Below, one piece after another: positions 3,417-14,126 of a stretch of 30,048 nt of DNA; position 1 is the first letter of the stretch, and the number at the start of each line of letters is the position of its first letter. The position numbers were made by a program, and so were the translations under genes. The notes beneath the pieces are model-generated. The model searched no databases. It saw only the letters and a list, made by a program, of their open reading frames with translations, and was not told the origin of the DNA. Source of the stretch: a virus; the IMG/VR virus record IMGVR_UViG_3300021963_000463, positions 1 through 30,048 of that record, one strand, 5' to 3'.

Positions 3417-6400
3417 TGCAAAATAATTACTATTCTCTTTGTGATATCAAAGTTATTGTAGATTATCCTCAAGAAAGACAAAACAGATTAGGTCCATATA
3501 CATTTGCTACTGACGGAACACAATTAGATGCTGGTTCTGCAGTCAATTGTATGATTGATCCTGTTACTTTGTCTGTTTTTGGTACTCCACTTCCAAGGAC
3601 AGAAGAATGGAATGATAAAACTACTCCATGTACAGGCCATTATTATAGATTTCAAAAGAGTGATTTCACATTTACTGGAACTGGTGGATCAACACCATGG
3701 CTTGTAAACAACTATAGAAAAGCTGGAGATACCTATATAGTTTGTGGTTCAGGTACTACTGCTGTTCAGCAAGCTCCAGTGCAATTAACTAATGGTGTTT
3801 CAAGAAATGAACCATTATTCTTTTCATATTCTAAACTTCAAAAGAAAGAATCTTATGATGGAGTATTAGTTAAACTTTTCTGGGCTAATTCTACAAATCC
3901 TGATAAAGATACTCAATTACATTTTAAAACTGATGGTTCTTGTGATGTTTACAGAGGATATAAAACTCTTACTGGAAACATTTTTGTAGAGGTAGGAACA
4001 TCTTTAGTAACAACAGTTTATGAACCTATAAGTGGTGTTTATCCTGGTAAGTTTTTAACAGAAGTTTCTGCAGGTGATAAAATTATATTACCAAATGGAA
4101 TGATTCTTGGTACTGTTGCTTCTGTTGCAAGTGATGCTCAGTTTTCATTAACTGCTAACGTTACTGAAACTTATGAAGGTGCAGCAAGTTGTACTAAAAC
4201 TCCTAATAAAGTTCAGTCTTATTCTAGAACTGAATCAAATTATAATCAGTCTAGACCAATAAGTACAACCGCTAATCCTAACGATCAATATAATGATGTT
4301 TATATAATTCCATGTAGAGGTAAAGAATTATTAATTTTAACCTCTTATGGTCTTAATTTTAGTCACAGTTTTGATGATTTAAATGTTCCAGATCCTCCAG
4401 CAAATATGTCGATTTATAATCTACAAATTGCTCCAGTAGATCCTCCAAACTTTACAAGTCAAAACATAATTTTGCCTTCTGGAGACTTTAGTATTGTAAT
4501 TCCTGCTGGTAAAGTGCAATTTCAGTTAGCTAAGTTATATTTCTTAGATAACTGGTCAATTGTATCACAGAAAATACAAACATCTTCTGCACCACCTCAA
4601 TTACCATCATTTTTAAATGGTACATTATCATGTGCATTTGGAAGTACTGAAATTACTGGAACAGGAACTTCTTTTTCAACTCAATTATCTGCTGGTAATG
4701 AAGTTTATTTTTATAGTGGTTTAACAGATACTTATTTAGGCACAATTCAAAGCGTAACTAATAATACTAGTGCATATTTAACTCAACCAACAGAATATAA
4801 GCTTACAGATTCGAATTACAATGTTCAAGGAAATCTTACTGGAACTATATCTGTTAATAAAAACTCAGCCGTTGTAACTGGTACTGGAACATCATTTATT
4901 CCACAATTAGCAGTTGGAGATTGGATTTTTACTAGTGATGGTAGACAAATAGGACAAATTGCTCAAGAAATAAGTAATACAACTGTTAATATATTTGATA
5001 ATGCAAACTTTACTTATTCTGGAACATATAGAAAAAATATAAATCAATATTCAGATAATTTTACCAATGCACAAGCTGAGTTTTTTAGCAGTGTAATTCC
5101 AACTTCTGCTGATAATTTATCATTAAATTACTATATCACTAACAGTACTAACTCTTATGAAAATAGTCAATTAGAAGCTGGATTAAAATTATTTAATAAT
5201 GTTAACGATTCTTTTAAGATCAAAATAATTCAAAAGAACGAAGATGATGCTTCATCTACTGCATCTTCAGATAAAGGATTCATGTTTTATTCTGTTGATG
5301 ATATTTTTGTCTTAAAAAATGAAAAAACATCTGATTCTTCAGTAGATATTACAAGTGCTATTGAACAAATGAGTATTGATCGTTCGGAAACAGGTCAATA
5401 TACTCTTAATTTCTCTGCTAGAAAACAATTACTTGATGATTTAGGAATGTCTAAACCATTACAAACTGCAAATAGATCAGTTAAAGTAATGCTTTCTCCA
5501 AGACAAATATTAATTACAGGTACTATTTCAAAAACTGGAAATACAATTAATGGAGTAGATACTTTATTTACTCAAGAATTATCAGTTGGTAATTATTTAT
5601 ATTTAGAAGATGGAACTTTCTTAGGCATAATTGAAAGTATTGCTAGTGATATTCAATTAACTATATGGTCTTACACAGCTAACACTTATATAGCTGAAAA
5701 CGCCTCAATATATCCAAAATACAGCGATTTTTTACTATATGAAGGATATTTAAGCTCACCTGAAATAACTTACTTAAATGCCGCTTTAAGTAGTGATAAT
5801 GGATATGTTCCTAACTACGAAAAATATGCTCTATTATCTTATTCTGCTATAGATAAATTGCAATATTTAAACAAAATATATTATTCAGAAGCACCTAACT
5901 TTGATAGTGTAGCTCTTCCAGACATTATTGAAACAAATATAATTTTTGGTGGACAAGGCAACAATGATATTAATAATAATGATTTAATAATATCAGATAC
6001 TATCAGTACATATCAAGTACCATTAAACAGAAACAACAGTAATGGACAATACAATTTTATAGCTAATCTTGGAGACAACGTAGGTGGATATATTGAAAAA
6101 CTACGTTCAGATTATGCTCAAAACTTTGTATTCTTCTCAAGACCTGACTGGTATCCAAAAGATGTTAGTCAAAATGGATGGACTAATTATTCAGCTTTTA
6201 AATTCATGGATCAAGACTATACAGTTGATTATTCACCAACATATAGTTTGTTTTTAAATGAATTTCTTGCCACTGATTTATTTGGAGTTGATACTTGGGA
6301 TGCTTGGAAACCATCAATTAGAAGCTTAAAAAGAACTTATGAAGCACCAGAAGCAAATAGGATTTATATTGTTGGTTTAGATAAGACAAATGGATCAAGA

Positions 6401-7375
6401 TTACAATATCTTTTGAACGATCATGATTCTCAAAATCCTTACACTTTACCTGCTGATAGACCTACAAATTGGCTTGGTGCAATTAGTCCTTTTGTTATGA
6501 TTAATGATAAGCTTAACACCACTACTGATGTTGTTCAAGCTGCAAATCAATTCTATGCAAAATTGTCATCAGGAAGAAATATAATTGAGTTTGAAGCTGA
6601 TTTAATTACAGCAATTGATCCGTTCCAATTTTATCTTCCAAATAATAGAGTTTCATTATCTGGATCTATTATTGTTGATCAAGGAAGTACATCTGTTTTA
6701 GGTACTTCAACTTATTTCACTACTGAGTTACAAGTTGGAGATTATTTATATCTAGAAAATGGTGCGAAAATTGGATATGTAAAATCAATTGAAAGTGATT
6801 CTGGACTTACTCTTGTTAATGGTTCTTTAGCAGATAGTAATGGTGAAGAAAAGTTTTTCAATGATTACACACAATATTTAGAGCAATATAGATATTATGA
6901 TATTGGTGATATTGTTGGATTATATGATGAGTTTGGAATTGTAGTTTATTATAAGATTCTTTCATGGTCTTGTCAGTTTATTAAAGAAACTACTACAGCT
7001 GATTATATCAATGCTAGACGTGCAATTTATAGAGCTAAACAGATTAATTATGATCCACTAATTGTTACATCTAATGCTCCAATATTTGCATTTAATTATA
7101 ATCAAATACCTGCTGCTAACCAATGGATTGTTACTCAAGGTAATGAATTAAACTTTACTGTTCTTGCAATTGAACCAAGTACAACAGATACTATTACATA
7201 TACTTTGAATAACGAACCAACTGGAATGACTATTGGTTCGTCAACTGGAACTATTAGTTGGACACCTACCTCTTTACAACAAAATCAAATATTCGAAGAT
7301 ATAGAAGTAGTAGCATTTGATGGGGTTAATTCAACATCATATTTCTTTAGCGTAAGGGTTTACGATACAATCTAA
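3416..7375 (+). CDS. Large distal tail/baseplate structural protein with internal repeats and a C-terminal Ig-like domain
   Basis: This 1319-aa protein is encoded right after the tape measure, where distal tail and tail-associated proteins lie. About five copies of a 55-60 residue beta repeat start near residues 186, 401, 475, 701 and 1082. The repeat core resembles TGTGTSFxxQLxVGDxIxxxDG, followed by IGxIxSIxSDTxLTL. The last 90 residues (NELNFTVLAIEP, then PTGMTIGSSTGTISWTPT) look like a cadherin-like/He_PIG Ig fold, common in adhesins and tail fibres. It is probably a hub or receptor-contact protein at the tail tip. Start and stop overlap both neighbours by TAATG, indicating translational coupling. 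The exact family is not recognised. Confidence 0.7.
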   Translation: MQNNYYSLCDIKVIVDYPQERQNRLGPYTFATDGTQLDAGSAVNCMIDPVTLSVFGTPLPRTEEWNDKTTPCTGHYYRFQKSDFTFTGTGGSTPWLVNNYRKAGDTYIVCGSGTTAVQQAPVQLTNGVSRNEPLFFSYSKLQKKESYDGVLVKLFWANSTNPDKDTQLHFKTDGSCDVYRGYKTLTGNIFVEVGTSLVTTVYEPISGVYPGKFLTEVSAGDKIILPNGMILGTVASVASDAQFSLTANVTETYEGAASCTKTPNKVQSYSRTESNYNQSRPISTTANPNDQYNDVYIIPCRGKELLILTSYGLNFSHSFDDLNVPDPPANMSIYNLQIAPVDPPNFTSQNIILPSGDFSIVIPAGKVQFQLAKLYFLDNWSIVSQKIQTSSAPPQLPSFLNGTLSCAFGSTEITGTGTSFSTQLSAGNEVYFYSGLTDTYLGTIQSVTNNTSAYLTQPTEYKLTDSNYNVQGNLTGTISVNKNSAVVTGTGTSFIPQLAVGDWIFTSDGRQIGQIAQEISNTTVNIFDNANFTYSGTYRKNINQYSDNFTNAQAEFFSSVIPTSADNLSLNYYITNSTNSYENSQLEAGLKLFNNVNDSFKIKIIQKNEDDASSTASSDKGFMFYSVDDIFVLKNEKTSDSSVDITSAIEQMSIDRSETGQYTLNFSARKQLLDDLGMSKPLQTANRSVKVMLSPRQILITGTISKTGNTINGVDTLFTQELSVGNYLYLEDGTFLGIIESIASDIQLTIWSYTANTYIAENASIYPKYSDFLLYEGYLSSPEITYLNAALSSDNGYVPNYEKYALLSYSAIDKLQYLNKIYYSEAPNFDSVALPDIIETNIIFGGQGNNDINNNDLIISDTISTYQVPLNRNNSNGQYNFIANLGDNVGGYIEKLRSDYAQNFVFFSRPDWYPKDVSQNGWTNYSAFKFMDQDYTVDYSPTYSLFLNEFLATDLFGVDTWDAWKPSIRSLKRTYEAPEANRIYIVGLDKTNGSRLQYLLNDHDSQNPYTLPADRPTNWLGAISPFVMINDKLNTTTDVVQAANQFYAKLSSGRNIIEFEADLITAIDPFQFYLPNNRVSLSGSIIVDQGSTSVLGTSTYFTTELQVGDYLYLENGAKIGYVKSIESDSGLTLVNGSLADSNGEEKFFNDYTQYLEQYRYYDIGDIVGLYDEFGIVVYYKILSWSCQFIKETTTADYINARRAIYRAKQINYDPLIVTSNAPIFAFNYNQIPAANQWIVTQGNELNFTVLAIEPSTTDTITYTLNNEPTGMTIGSSTGTISWTPTSLQQNQIFEDIEVVAFDGVNSTSYFFSVRVYDTI

Positions 7376-10717: not shown

Positions 10718-10918
10718 TTACATACAAGATTCATGTAAAAACTCTCTTGTATATTTTTTCTGTAATTCTTTCAAATTGATCATTTGATATCTAAGATGGA
10801 TCTCTTTGTAATCCTCTTTCTTCTTCTTCTCAAATTCCTCATCTTGCTTTCTAATCTTTTCAAGATCAACATCTTCAAATGCTTTCATAAACTCTTCAAA
10901 TACTTGCTCTTTATCCAT
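10718..10918 (-). CDS. Small charged hypothetical protein (66 aa), probably from a leaderless mRNA
   Basis: This Lys/Glu-rich helical protein begins MDKEQVFEEFMKAFEDVDLE and has no recognised domain. The frame is open upstream to an ATG at 10996 (92 aa). However, a perfect sigma70 promoter (TTGACA, 17 nt, TATAAT) lies inside that longer frame, with its -10 box ending 6 nt before the ATG at 10918. Transcription should therefore begin at or next to this ATG, and I take it as the start. The opposite-strand ORF at 10784-11152 looks like a shadow, because its apparent hydrophobicity is the complement of Lys/Glu codons. It lies beside the iteron array, so a regulatory or copy-control role is conceivable but not shown. 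Confidence 0.6.
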   Translation of the reverse strand: MDKEQVFEEFMKAFEDVDLEKIRKQDEEFEKKKKEDYKEIHLRYQMINLKELQKKYTREFLHESCM

Positions 10919-10924
10919 GCTCTT

Positions 10925-10953
10925 ATTATAACTGTATTTCTTATAATTGTCAA
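10925..10953 (-). promoter_or_regulatory. Consensus sigma70 promoter for the leftward 66-aa gene
   Basis: On the minus strand TTGACA (10953-10948) and TATAAT (10930-10925) are separated by exactly 17 nt, matching both consensus hexamers fully. Only six bases (AAGAGC) separate the -10 box from the ATG, so the transcript should start at or near the start codon. Confidence 0.85.
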
Positions 10954-11066
10954 ATTCAGTTTTTCCTGTAATCAAACTTTCTTTGATAGGAAACATGATA
11001 ATTCTATTCTTATTATCTTAGAGAATTCTTGGATCTTGAGAAAGAAGACGAATTGTTTAGCCTATG

Positions 11067-11188
11067 ATTGTTTGACACCTAATAAAATCGTCAAACAAAA
11101 ATTAGCTAATCGTCAAACAAAAAATACTCAAGTGTCAAACAAAAATTACTAAATCGTCAAACAAATATTATTTGTATTTTTGTTTGAC
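11067..11188. repeat. 22-bp iteron array, candidate replication origin or operator cluster
   Basis: Four direct copies of GTCAAACAAA start at 11090, 11112, 11134 and 11156, exactly 22 bp apart. The 22-bp units run 11084-11105, 11106-11127, 11128-11149 and 11150-11171, with consensus core AATCGTCAAACAAAAATTA. Inverted copies flank them at 11067-11076 (9 of 10 matches) and 11179-11188 (10 of 10), also close to the 22-bp grid. Between the last direct and the right inverted copy is an AT-only-stemmed palindrome, ACAAATA T TATTTGT with C/G only at the outer pair region (11161-11175). Two-turn phasing upstream of a DNA-binding protein gene is typical of iteron origins of plasmids and some phages; an operator cluster is the alternative. 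Confidence 0.8.
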
Positions 11189-11221
11189 GGTTGTATGTTG
11201 CAGGTCAGTTTTATTTGGTTG

Positions 11222-11230
11222 TGGTATAGT
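11222..11230 (+). promoter_or_regulatory. Extended -10 promoter for the structured leader and the DNA-binding protein
   Basis: TGGTATAGT carries the TGn extension and a one-mismatch -10 hexamer. No good -35 lies at 16-18 nt. Transcription would begin near 11237, just before the pairing elements of the leader. The iterons lie directly upstream, so binding there could control this promoter. Confidence 0.5.
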
Positions 11231-11240
11231 ATATTTGGAA

Positions 11241-11332
11241 GTCATTCCACTCGCCTCAAAATGTCTGTAGAGAGATTGCAAGCTCTCTACAGATCAGCGA
11301 ATAGGAATGGTCCAGAGGCGAATTATGAATGA
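11241..11332 (+). promoter_or_regulatory. Structured 5' leader that can sequester the SD and start codon; possible pseudoknot switch
   Basis: A central hairpin pairs CTGTAGAGAG (11265-11274) with CTCTCTACAG (11283-11292), loop 8 nt. TCGCCTC (11251-11257) is complementary to GAGGCGA (11315-11321), which contains the GAGG Shine-Dalgarno of the ATG at 11325. CATTCC (11243-11248) can pair with GGAATG (11304-11309), giving a pseudoknot with the previous helix. Alternatively TCATTC (11242-11247) can pair with GAATGA (11327-11332), giving a nested stem over the start codon. The two options exclude each other. This fits translational control, as in plasmid rep leaders regulated by pseudoknots; it has not been tested. 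Confidence 0.65.
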
Positions 11333-12101
11333 AAAAGTGTATGAGTCTGTAAAGTCTCAAGTAGAATCAATTATTTTTAACAGAGAGCTTGATAATCTTT
11401 CTGGTTACTATCTTTCTTTTCCTGATTATATCAACGTAATCCATGATAATCAAAATCTTTACAAATCAGAATTACAAACTTTTATTAATTATGCAATATG
11501 TAATAACTTATCGATTGATAAAAATACAGTTGGATATGATTTTTTAACTGAAAGATTAGGTCACCTTTCTTACAAATATGCTAATCAAAAAAAAGAAAAT
11601 ATTGAGGATATCATTATCAGTCCAGAAAATCAAGAGATAAGCAATAAAAGAAAAGTTGGAAGACCTAAAGGTTCAAAAAATATTATTAAAGTAAATATTC
11701 CAAGACATAAAATTATTGATAGTCAAATAATTCCTGCAATTCAAGATTTAATTTGGTATCGATCTGGAATGTTAGCAAAAGAAATAATTAATCAATTAGA
11801 TCTTGATGAATCAATTGTGAAATTAGCATTTGGTAAATTGCATGAATATTCAGGGACTCATTGGATTAAACAAAAGAAAAAACTTCCTAATGGTGGAATA
11901 TGTGAAAGATATTATCCAATTAAGGACAGATCTGGATATTTTTATGATGGTAAATTGATGTCCCTCGGTGAAATATCTAAAATAACTGGAAAATCTAAGC
12001 AAATCCTTTCATATAGAATAAAGAAAGGCTTGAACCATATTGAAGCTATAAACAATCAAATTAATGATAAAATGATACGAAGAAATCCAAATAAACAATA
12101 G
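11325..12101 (+). CDS. DNA-binding protein with AT-hook-like and HTH motifs; candidate replication initiator
   Basis: This 258-aa protein has no family I can name with certainty. Around residues 110-120 it has KRKVGRPKGSKN, an AT-hook-like GRPKGSK motif. Next comes a possible winged-helix region (IPAIQDLIWYRSGMLAKEII onward), then a C-terminal HTH-like segment LGEISKITGKSKQILSYRIK, a type also seen attached to phage nucleases. I choose the ATG at 11325 because GAGG lies 6 nt upstream. The frame is also open to an ATG at 11307 (264 aa), which lies inside a paired element and lacks an SD. Position just downstream of iterons and a structured leader suggests a Rep-like initiator or regulator, by inference only. 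A GIY-YIG gene follows 11 nt later. Confidence 0.7.
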   Translation: MNEKVYESVKSQVESIIFNRELDNLSGYYLSFPDYINVIHDNQNLYKSELQTFINYAICNNLSIDKNTVGYDFLTERLGHLSYKYANQKKENIEDIIISPENQEISNKRKVGRPKGSKNIIKVNIPRHKIIDSQIIPAIQDLIWYRSGMLAKEIINQLDLDESIVKLAFGKLHEYSGTHWIKQKKKLPNGGICERYYPIKDRSGYFYDGKLMSLGEISKITGKSKQILSYRIKKGLNHIEAINNQINDKMIRRNPNKQ

Positions 12102-12112
12102 AAAGCATAGAA

Positions 12113-12643
12113 ATGCAAGATTTTGAAAAATTACTTGATAGAGTCATTCCAGAATCAGACAAGCTTAAAGATTATGTTTACACTCTTTTACTCGAAAATA
12201 ATAATTATTATGTTGGATATACTAACAACATATATAAAAGAATGAAACTACATTTTACAGGCAAAGGTAGTGACTGGACTAAATTACATAAGCCAATTAA
12301 AATAATCAAAATAGTAGAAGGTAATACAAAAACAGAAACTCAAGAAACTTTGAACTTGATGAAGAAAAAAGGTTCAAGAGTTAGAGGTGCTGGTTGGTGT
12401 GATGTAATTATGGATAGCCCACCAATTGAATTATATGAGCATTTCAATTGGAAACCATATTATTTAGCTAAAGCACCAAATGGAACTACCTTATATTATA
12501 AATTTGATGGTGAAAAACATGTATGCCTTACTGGATTGAACAGAAATACATTTGCTGACATAAATTATGATCTAAAAGCTTTTAAAAAATTAGCTAGATG
12601 TAAATTAGTTAAATATAAAGAAGAAGATGAAGTAACAGAATAA
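12113..12643 (+). CDS. GIY-YIG endonuclease-like protein
   Basis: The 176-aa protein has the family's N-terminal signature: VYTL at residues 22-25 in place of GIY, YVG at 33-35 in place of YIG, and a conserved Arg near 43 (YKRMKLH). A region around 95-105 (RVRGAGWCDVI) is of a kind found in other phage GIY-YIG proteins. These are single-domain nucleases or homing-type enzymes that cut DNA with a metal ion. It begins 11 nt after the preceding gene, probably in the same transcript, with only a weak ribosome binding site. It may be mobile, or act in replication or recombination. A strong terminator overlaps its stop codon. Confidence 0.8.
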   Translation: MQDFEKLLDRVIPESDKLKDYVYTLLLENNNYYVGYTNNIYKRMKLHFTGKGSDWTKLHKPIKIIKIVEGNTKTETQETLNLMKKKGSRVRGAGWCDVIMDSPPIELYEHFNWKPYYLAKAPNGTTLYYKFDGEKHVCLTGLNRNTFADINYDLKAFKKLARCKLVKYKEEDEVTE

Positions 12644-12670
12644 AAAAACCCCAGGAAACTGGGGTTTTTT
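12643..12670. terminator. Bidirectional terminator with GAAA loop
   Basis: AAAAAACCCCAG (12643-12654) pairs perfectly with CTGGGGTTTTTT (12659-12670) around a GAAA tetraloop. It ends the rightward DNA-binding/GIY-YIG unit and, read on the other strand, the leftward gene ending at 12688. Confidence 0.92.
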
Positions 12671-12687: not shown

Positions 12688-13086
12688 TTAAACCTTTCTC
12701 ATTCTCAAATTGTAACCATTAGAATTAACTAGCAAAAACATATTGTCATAGTTGCTATAAAATAATAAACCGTTTTGTTTATTATCTTCTTCAAATCTAC
12801 AAATCTCTTGGTTATTCAAATAGTCCAAAGTACATAAGTCTTTCAAGCCATAAGTGTTGTAATTGAAAAAATCTATATGATACTTTCCAGATAAATAAAA
12901 CTTAACTAAAAAGAAAGACTTATTCATGTAATTAAAATATAAACTTAATTTAACTCGCTCATAATTATTCACAGCTATTAATTCTAAATCACCAATAATT
13001 CTATATGATCCAAATACATTTACAATTGGATTGACCTCTTTCTCATTAAACATATCATCAGTAATCAAACTTTTAACCTTCTTCAT
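12688..13086 (-). CDS. Hypothetical protein (132 aa), divergent from the HTH operon
   Basis: The product, starting MKKVKSLITDDMFNEKE, has many Asn, Tyr and Phe residues and no recognised domain, signal or membrane segment. I use the ATG at 13086, since GAGG lies 7 nt upstream inside the predicted leader and transcription should start about 13098-13096. The frame extends four codons further to a GTG at 13098, only 5 nt from the -10 box, which would make a leaderless alternative. It has a perfect sigma70 promoter back-to-back with that of the Cro-like gene, so it is probably an early gene under the same operator, as in phage immunity or switch regions. Confidence 0.7.
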   Translation of the reverse strand: MKKVKSLITDDMFNEKEVNPIVNVFGSYRIIGDLELIAVNNYERVKLSLYFNYMNKSFFLVKFYLSGKYHIDFFNYNTYGLKDLCTLDYLNNQEICRFEEDNKQNGLLFYSNYDNMFLLVNSNGYNLRMRKV

Positions 13087-13103
13087 TTGTAACCTCACCT
13101 ATC

Positions 13104-13145: not shown

Positions 13146-13168
13146 AATATACATAAAAATGTTATAAT
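13140..13168 (+). promoter_or_regulatory. sigma70 promoter of the HTH-sigma-terminase operon
   Basis: TGGACA (13140-13145, one mismatch) and TATAAT (13163-13168) are 17 nt apart. Six bases (AGAGGT) separate the -10 box from the ATG at 13175, so the mRNA is probably leaderless for the first gene, like lambda cI transcribed from PRM. Confidence 0.8.
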
Positions 13169-13174
13169 AGAGGT

Positions 13175-13384
13175 ATGGCAAAACGAAATGATTTGTTGAT
13201 CACAGAATTAACACAAATGCAAATAGCGGAAAAGCTAGGAGTAGCTCAACCACTTATAAGTAGATGGATGTCAGGAAGGTGTATGCCACGTCCATCAACA
13301 ATAACTAAATTAGCAGAAGCATTAGGTGTAGATGAAAAAGAGTTATTAGTTTATATATATGACAAAAATAAGAAGATGGTCTGA
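13175..13384 (+). CDS. Cro/C1-type (XRE family) HTH transcriptional regulator
   Basis: This 69-aa protein is little more than one XRE helix-turn-helix: LTQMQIAEKLGVAQPLISRW at about residues 12-31, then STITKLAEALGVDEKEL. It lacks the C-terminal peptidase or oligomerisation domain of CI repressors, so it resembles Cro or a plasmid copy-control regulator. It is the first gene of an operon and lies beside a dyad overlapping both divergent promoters, so autoregulation is likely. The ATG is 6 nt from TATAAT. Its 3' end overlaps the next gene's start by 26 nt in another frame. Confidence 0.88.
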   Translation: MAKRNDLLITELTQMQIAEKLGVAQPLISRWMSGRCMPRPSTITKLAEALGVDEKELLVYIYDKNKKMV

Positions 13385-14126
13385 ATATTACAAGGTCAAG
13401 AAGGATAATGAGGGAAGACCAACATTATCTCAAGACGCTTTTTTGTCATCTCAATTAAACACTAAAAACAGAGAGAAAGCCCTCAACGAATACATTGAAC
13501 TAAATATGCTAGTAGTCCATAAAATCTGCAAAAATTATAGGTGGAGTAATATTGATTATGAAGATTTAGTGATGTATGGAGTTGAAGGATTAATAGCTGC
13601 AGCCGATTGTTATGATCCAAGTAAAGGATTCAAGTTCCACACCTTTTGCTATCATTATATACTTGGAAGAATTAGAAGAGCTTTAGAACATCACAACAAT
13701 ATTATCAAGATACCAGCACATATAAACTTAGCAAAATTAAGAATCAACCATTTAGACGAAGATAAAGAATACTCTGATGAATTCTTATTGACACTTACAG
13801 ATGAAAGATACACTTTGAATGATATTAAAACAGCATTAAGTGTTAGAAAATTATATGCTATTGATAACTTGGATTTGATTGTAGATAGAGTAGATGAAAG
13901 TATTAAAAATCCTGAGGTTAAGATATGTATTGATGAGATTCTAGATACATTAAAACCTATAGAAAAACAGGCAATAGAACTCAAATTTGGATTGAATGGA
14001 CATAAACCACATTACTATAAAGAGATTGATAAAATATTAGATATTGATAGTGATGGTGTAATTAACAGGGCATTAGTAAGATTGCGTAATAAGGGTTTGG
14101 AAAGTTTACTGGATTATTTAAAATGA
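13359..14126 (+). CDS. Phage RNA polymerase sigma factor (sigma70 family)
   Basis: The 255-aa protein has a clear region 2 at about residues 41-110, with DYEDLVMYGVEGLIAA, YDPSKGFKFHTFCYHYI and RIRRALEH, the core-binding and -10 recognition segments. A short region 3-like part follows (IKIPAHINLAKLRI). A region 4-like HTH lies near the C-terminus (LKPIEKQAIELKFGLNG to NRALVRLRNKG). Region 1.1 is absent. It should redirect host RNA polymerase to phage late promoters; the repeated 14-mer upstream of portal, protease and connector genes is the obvious candidate target. The start overlaps the HTH gene by 26 nt, and its stop overlaps the terminase small subunit start (ATGA), so it is made before or with the packaging enzymes. 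Confidence 0.9.
   Translation: MTKIRRWSEYYKVKKDNEGRPTLSQDAFLSSQLNTKNREKALNEYIELNMLVVHKICKNYRWSNIDYEDLVMYGVEGLIAAADCYDPSKGFKFHTFCYHYILGRIRRALEHHNNIIKIPAHINLAKLRINHLDEDKEYSDEFLLTLTDERYTLNDIKTALSVRKLYAIDNLDLIVDRVDESIKNPEVKICIDEILDTLKPIEKQAIELKFGLNGHKPHYYKEIDKILDIDSDGVINRALVRLRNKGLESLLDYLK

Follow-up and report, generated by a model that had tools for sequence, protein, structure and literature searches.

In the RepZ-type leaders of plasmids a pseudoknot is required for translation, and antisense RNA blocks it (PMC8383071). In phage T4, the binding of gp32 is nucleated by a pseudoknot that lies 67 nt 5' of the gene 32 start, and a 2010 review regarded this pseudoknot as perhaps the sole viral pseudoknot in translational autoregulation (PMC3014915). 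In type I toxin mRNAs, transient hairpins mask the Shine-Dalgarno (SD) sequence in the nascent RNA and so prevent premature translation (PMC6733600, PMC11228461). Here we describe an RNA leader in IMGVR_UViG_3300021963_000463, a 30,048-nt viral fragment (positions 1 to 30,048 of the record) of an uncultured bacterial virus, referred to below as the window. The leader (approximately 11236-11324) precedes a gene for a 258-residue predicted DNA-binding protein (11325-12101, plus strand), and we favor, with moderate confidence, the reading that it is a cis-acting two-state translational switch in which one strand pairs either with a decoy or with the SD and start of the gene. An earlier note, made from the letters of the window, had proposed such a switch in the form of a pseudoknot; the competing SD and start pairings that it described are present and are compensated in a distant relative, whereas the pseudoknot proved unnecessary.

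Two mutually exclusive predicted folds of the leader

All elements of the leader lie on the plus strand. An extended -10 promoter (TGTGGTATAGT, 11220-11230) would drive the leader transcript, and the position of this box places the predicted start of the RNA at about 11236-11238. The comparison throughout is with IMGVR_UViG_3300032311_001364 (L040), which has a gene of the same type (36% protein identity) with a leader in the same place, and which shares with the window the core of the upstream repeats, the type of leader and the extended -10 box (TGTGGTATAtT at equal distance).

The masked (OFF) fold can be read directly from the letters. The anti-SD segment UCGCCUC (11251-11257) pairs with the SD region GAGGCGA (11315-11321; GGUGAAA at 5977-83 in L040) over all seven positions, as the earlier note had it, and four of these pairs are compensated in L040. 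The start codon of the gene (ATG, 11325) lies 6 nt past the SD core GAGG (11315-18). The anti-start segment UCAUUCC (11242-11248) supplies a second pairing, of 11242-47 with 11327-32; all six pairs are present, but they cover just the last base of the AUG (11325-27) and the next codons, rather than the start codon as a whole. Enclosed between these strands is a central hairpin, P3 (11263-11294), with the 8-nt loop described before (AUUGCAAG, 11275-82) and with 11 Watson-Crick pairs, or 12 with a G-U pair (11263-74/11283-94), where 10 had been counted.

When pairing of the SD was forbidden, the fold calculation returned an alternative (ON) form, one long hairpin in which P3 is retained and the SD is free. 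Segment UGGAA (11236-11240, identical in L040), which can otherwise form a short 5' hairpin with 11245-49, here contributes UGGA (11236-39) to a helix with UCCA (11311-11314; UUCCA in L040), closing the hairpin immediately 5' of the SD. The anti-start segment pairs with the decoy, where the helix proposed in the earlier note is present as 6 bp (11243-48/11304-09) and extends to seven with a G-U pair (11242-48/11304-10). The first four bases of the anti-SD segment, UCGC, pair with 11297-300; because of this short extra pairing (11251-54/11297-300), which had been overlooked, the alternative form can be nested and need not be a pseudoknot. The ON form lies above the OFF form by 4.0 kcal/mol in the window and by 2.9 kcal/mol in L040.

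The strand that the ON form occupies resembles the true initiation region. The decoy (11297-11309, GCGAAUAGGAAUG) is similar to 11318-11331 (GCGAAUUAUGAAUG) with p=0.002, and in L040 the decoy uses other letters, GUGAAAAUGG mimicking GUGAAAAAAUGG with p=0.006. Both alternative pairings of the anti-start segment are present in L040 too, in a shifted register. Shuffles of the linker alone yielded an ON form as stable as the real one in 3.9% of cases for the window and 0.1% for L040 (p 0.039 and 0.001), and the anti-start/start pairing had p 0.006 and 0.02, respectively; p-values inside one leader are not independent of each other, because one strand joins in all of the pairings. The leader has mutually exclusive predicted folds that mask or free the ribosome-binding site (RBS), conserved through covariation in the SD helix and P3 and through recurrence elsewhere.

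Folding of successive prefixes of the RNA gave the same order in both phages, from a short 5' hairpin with P3, to the decoy hairpin, to the masked form once the SD had been transcribed. The decoy form accounted for more than 97% up to 11319 in the window and more than 94% up to 5983 in L040, with the masked form afterwards; in the window the latter stood at 0.97 at 11321 and remained there. These model results suggest that a new transcript is open at first and closes later. As we infer it, the order of events would be that the anti-start and anti-SD strand of the nascent RNA first pairs with the decoy around P3, leaving the SD free (ON), and that the real SD and start, once transcribed, displace the decoy to give the more stable masked form (OFF), so that the DNA-binding protein would be made in a burst from new transcripts. 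Alternatively, a factor that holds one of the two forms would set translation, most plausibly through the conserved loop of P3. The switch is probably either kinetic or tipped by a factor.

Conservation in a distant relative

The leader of the window folds far more stably than expected by chance, with a z-score of -4.65 to -5.2 and none of 200 shuffles equally stable. Among 20,000 shuffles of each leader, an SD-masking helix with an enclosed hairpin appeared in none for the window and in 5 for L040. When the same test of helix plus hairpin was applied to 1,832 open reading frames (ORFs) of the window phage and its relatives, the only matches were the two leaders and two GC-rich matches in L012.

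A covariance model derived solely from the leader of the window found the L040 leader in 493 kb with 36.2 bits (E 8.8e-5), at the start of the gene homologous to that of the 258-residue protein. Across the SD-masking helix and P3, 12 of the 18 pairs differ on both sides between the two phages, and 35 of 36 cells (97%) are still paired; none of 500 shuffles matched this, and slid alignments were just 30-47% paired. In P3 itself, 8 of the 11 pairs had changed on both sides and none was broken, while the loop UUGCAAG was unchanged. The earlier note had named compensatory pairs in related genomes as a check and uncompensated breaks in relatives as a refutation; in L040 the pairings are kept through changes on both sides, and the proposal passes this test. 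Taken together, the comparison of sequences provides strong evidence for a conserved RNA structure in the leader. Because this distant relative keeps both foldings with almost wholly different letters, the leader probably is a genuine on/off switch that controls production of the DNA-binding protein.

Scans of viral and genome collections returned as further leaders only that of L040 and that of the near-identical L003, and no match was found among annotated phages and plasmids. L003 is 99.8% identical to the window, and its leader does not differ at any position, so that it adds no evidence. A pattern match in L045 was rejected as a further leader, since it belongs to an unrelated phage gene. 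In Rfam there were no matches in the window at the gathering threshold, and relaxed thresholds gave only chance-level matches over the leader.

Several observations weigh against a two-state switch. The independent leaders number only two, and column-wise covariation is limited to the SD helix and P3; since the registers are shifted between both phages, the anti-start and decoy helices count as recurrence and not as column-wise covariation. Taken by itself, the crossing 6-bp helix of the window is no rarity (p 0.03), and it gains weight because it recurs in L040 (p 0.005). At the corresponding locus, again behind repeats, three further relatives (L006, L037, and L038) carry distant homologues of the gene, but these homologues are of another gene type and have leaders of about 20 nt without such structure. 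In the complete leader, about 4 kcal/mol is needed to open the initiation region, a middling value among the genes of the window phage; as this cost is not exceptional, the model implies that the fold may by itself repress only mildly and that a factor may matter. Finally, the masked form in the L040 model reaches only about 0.77-0.79, prefix folding describes equilibria rather than kinetics, and the transcription start from which it proceeds is itself a prediction.

Alternative explanations

The alternative that survives best is autogenous control, in which the protein encoded by the gene, or another phage protein, would bind the leader at the P3 loop or through its fold and stabilize the masked state. 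The conservation of the loop UUGCAAG while the stems diverge, the predicted nucleic-acid-binding nature of the gene product and the precedent of T4 gp32 at its own mRNA (PMC3014915) are all consistent with it; however, no RNA-binding domain was found in the protein, and the three homologues of L006, L037, and L038 have no leader. Autogenous control is possible, though we think it unlikely in its own right, and it is compatible with the two-state switch, for which it could serve as the trigger.

Somewhat lower in our estimation stands a static leader, whose hairpin would just mask the SD or protect the 5' end of the mRNA, with the decoy pairings fortuitous. The confinement of strong covariation to the SD helix and P3 and the unremarkable crossing helix of the window agree with this explanation, but both the similarity of the decoy and the anti-start pairing are seen again in L040, where the letters are different, so that a static leader is rather improbable.

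Control by antisense RNA as in plasmid rep genes, with a minus-strand RNA ending at P3 and pairing with the leader, had been raised in the earlier note and found no support. P3 and the conserved AAAA would form a weak minus-strand terminator in L040, the loop core UUGCAA is self-complementary, and the window has a promoter-like minus-strand site at 11453-11425; this site, however, is the sole good minus-strand promoter and is not conserved in L040, promoter-like sites are no commoner than in shuffles, and the minus-strand T-run of the window is short. We give such control little credence. A functional pseudoknot that combines 11243-48/11304-09 with 11251-57/11315-21, as in repZ-type leaders, is likewise improbable. 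Both crossing helices are perfect, and in the window the loops are long enough (2 and 5 nt), but in L040 the connecting loop would be just 0-1 nt, and the nested decoy hairpin accounts better for the alternative state and draws on the same strands with no strain; because of these shared strands and the short loop in L040, the pseudoknot is best seen as a possible intermediate of strand exchange.

Other candidate readings were rejected. An HDV-like (hepatitis delta virus-like) ribozyme was considered because of the topology of the crossing helices in the leader, but there was no Rfam match and the nested alternative fits better. In HDV-like ribozymes the usual P3 is far shorter than the P3 of the leader. 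A leader peptide could be encoded by a 23-codon ORF (11261-11332, ATG at 11261), which has no SD and no counterpart of its start codon in L040. A sense-strand attenuator would require a T-run 3' of P3, and none is present. In the case of an RNA thermometer, the modeled cost of SD opening was nearly flat in both leaders (3.3-3.8 kcal/mol from 15 to 45 C).

The encoded protein, its iterons and the neighboring genes

The 258-residue protein has the AT-hook motif GRPKGSKN and a C-terminal helix-turn-helix (HTH), and looks like an AT-hook/HTH DNA-binding protein. It showed no match to Rep families in Pfam, PHROGs, NCBIfam or PDB sequences, and the label "rep-like" given to the gene in the earlier note finds support solely in the 22-bp iterons. 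The HNH-endonuclease family phrog_3377 gave a weak match in its C-terminal part (E 2.4e-4), and the structure model was poor (predicted local distance difference test, pLDDT, 67; predicted template modeling score, pTM, 0.37), with weak matches to HTH-type folds. A role in replication is possible because of the iterons.

The iteron array (11069-11188, plus strand) has four direct repeats of GTCAAACA at 11090, 11112, 11134, and 11156 with a 22-bp period, and inverted copies, TGTTTGAC, flank it at 11069-11076 and 11181-11188. Iterons of 22-bp period also precede the gene family in the relatives (L040, 5702-5835; L006, 6930-7040; L037, 3673-3758; L038, 4230-4330), those of L038 being the least clear. 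The core and period are identical in L040, and L006 and L037 have an equal period with other cores; among the phages the cores are GTCAAACA, TTATTTGAA, TGTAGCAAT, and TATAAGAA. The window and L040, which have the same core, also have 16 consecutive residues of the C-terminal HTH in common (ITGKSKQILSYRIKKG) at 36% identity overall, which suggests, from sequence comparison, that the protein binds the iterons and that iteron core and HTH co-diverge. In L040 the two gene types stand in tandem: the window-type gene (5986-6735), which has the structured leader, is followed by a short homologue of the L006 type (6768-7289).

A gene for a GIY-YIG endonuclease (12113-12643, plus strand; PF01541, E 1.3e-10) lies 3' of the gene of the 258-residue protein, probably in one operon with it, and a terminator-like hairpin (12643-12670, plus strand) lies at the end of the operon. 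The GIY-YIG gene adjoins the AT-hook gene in two phages, the window and L037 (4838-5281), and is not at the corresponding locus in L006, L038, and L040; the nuclease is possibly mobile or targets the origin. Additionally, two perfect TTGACA-17-TATAAT promoters on the minus strand (10953-10925 and 13132-13104) precede the two intergenic ORFs of that strand (10718-10996 and 12688-13098), which lie on either side of the module of iterons and AT-hook gene.

Profile searches identified a terminase, a portal, a prohead protease and a sigma factor in the window, which belongs to a tailed phage of low GC content. The best curated match of the sigma factor gene (13359-14126) was to the cyanobacterial RpoD/SigA group, and because of this affinity the host is probably, not certainly, a cyanobacterium. 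Between the window and L003, 13 of the 17 differences lie within 107 bases (13152-13258) where a small XRE-like HTH gene begins, and recombination or mixing during assembly is possible there.

Comparison with known systems

For a double-stranded DNA phage, the locus adds a probable translational switch that is short, supported by covariation, clear in its two-state design and absent from Rfam. Further phage leader switches are informative because T4 gene 32 was regarded in 2010 as perhaps the sole viral pseudoknot of its kind (PMC3014915). If the kinetic reading is true, the leader would be a timer without a ligand that gives a burst of regulator per new transcript. The switch sits in a module of 22-bp iterons, an AT-hook/HTH protein and a GIY-YIG nuclease, in which iteron and DNA-binding helix appear to co-vary between phages. 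Going further, we tentatively propose, as a possibility on the unlikely side, that it represents an undescribed class of phage mRNA switch built around a decoy copy of the RBS, in which transcripts would be translated briefly and then shut themselves by strand exchange, giving a pulse of an iteron-binding regulator or replication initiator.

One strand can pair with either the SD region or a competitor, which is the logic of the expression platform in translational riboswitches (anti-SD versus anti-anti-SD); unlike riboswitches, the phage leader has no Rfam match and no evident ligand-binding core beyond one hairpin. The rep leaders of IncB and IncL-M and the repZ leader of IncI-alpha (ColIb-P9) resemble the phage leader in that pairing masks the SD, the forms exclude each other and a hairpin loop is exposed, and the iteron array upstream of the phage leader recalls a replicon. 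In contrast to those leaders, the phage leader has no conserved leader peptide, antisense promoter or Rep family, and its alternative form is a decoy hairpin. The sequential, exclusive SD pairings during and after transcription resemble those of type I toxin mRNAs (hok, aapA3, timP); in the phage leader, by contrast, the open form is the one predicted for nascent RNA, the gene encodes a predicted DNA-binding protein and no antitoxin RNA was seen. Finally, like the T4 gene 32 operator, this is a structured phage leader 5' of the RBS of a gene for a DNA-binding protein; unlike it, the phage leader described here has a structure that pairs directly with the SD and start.
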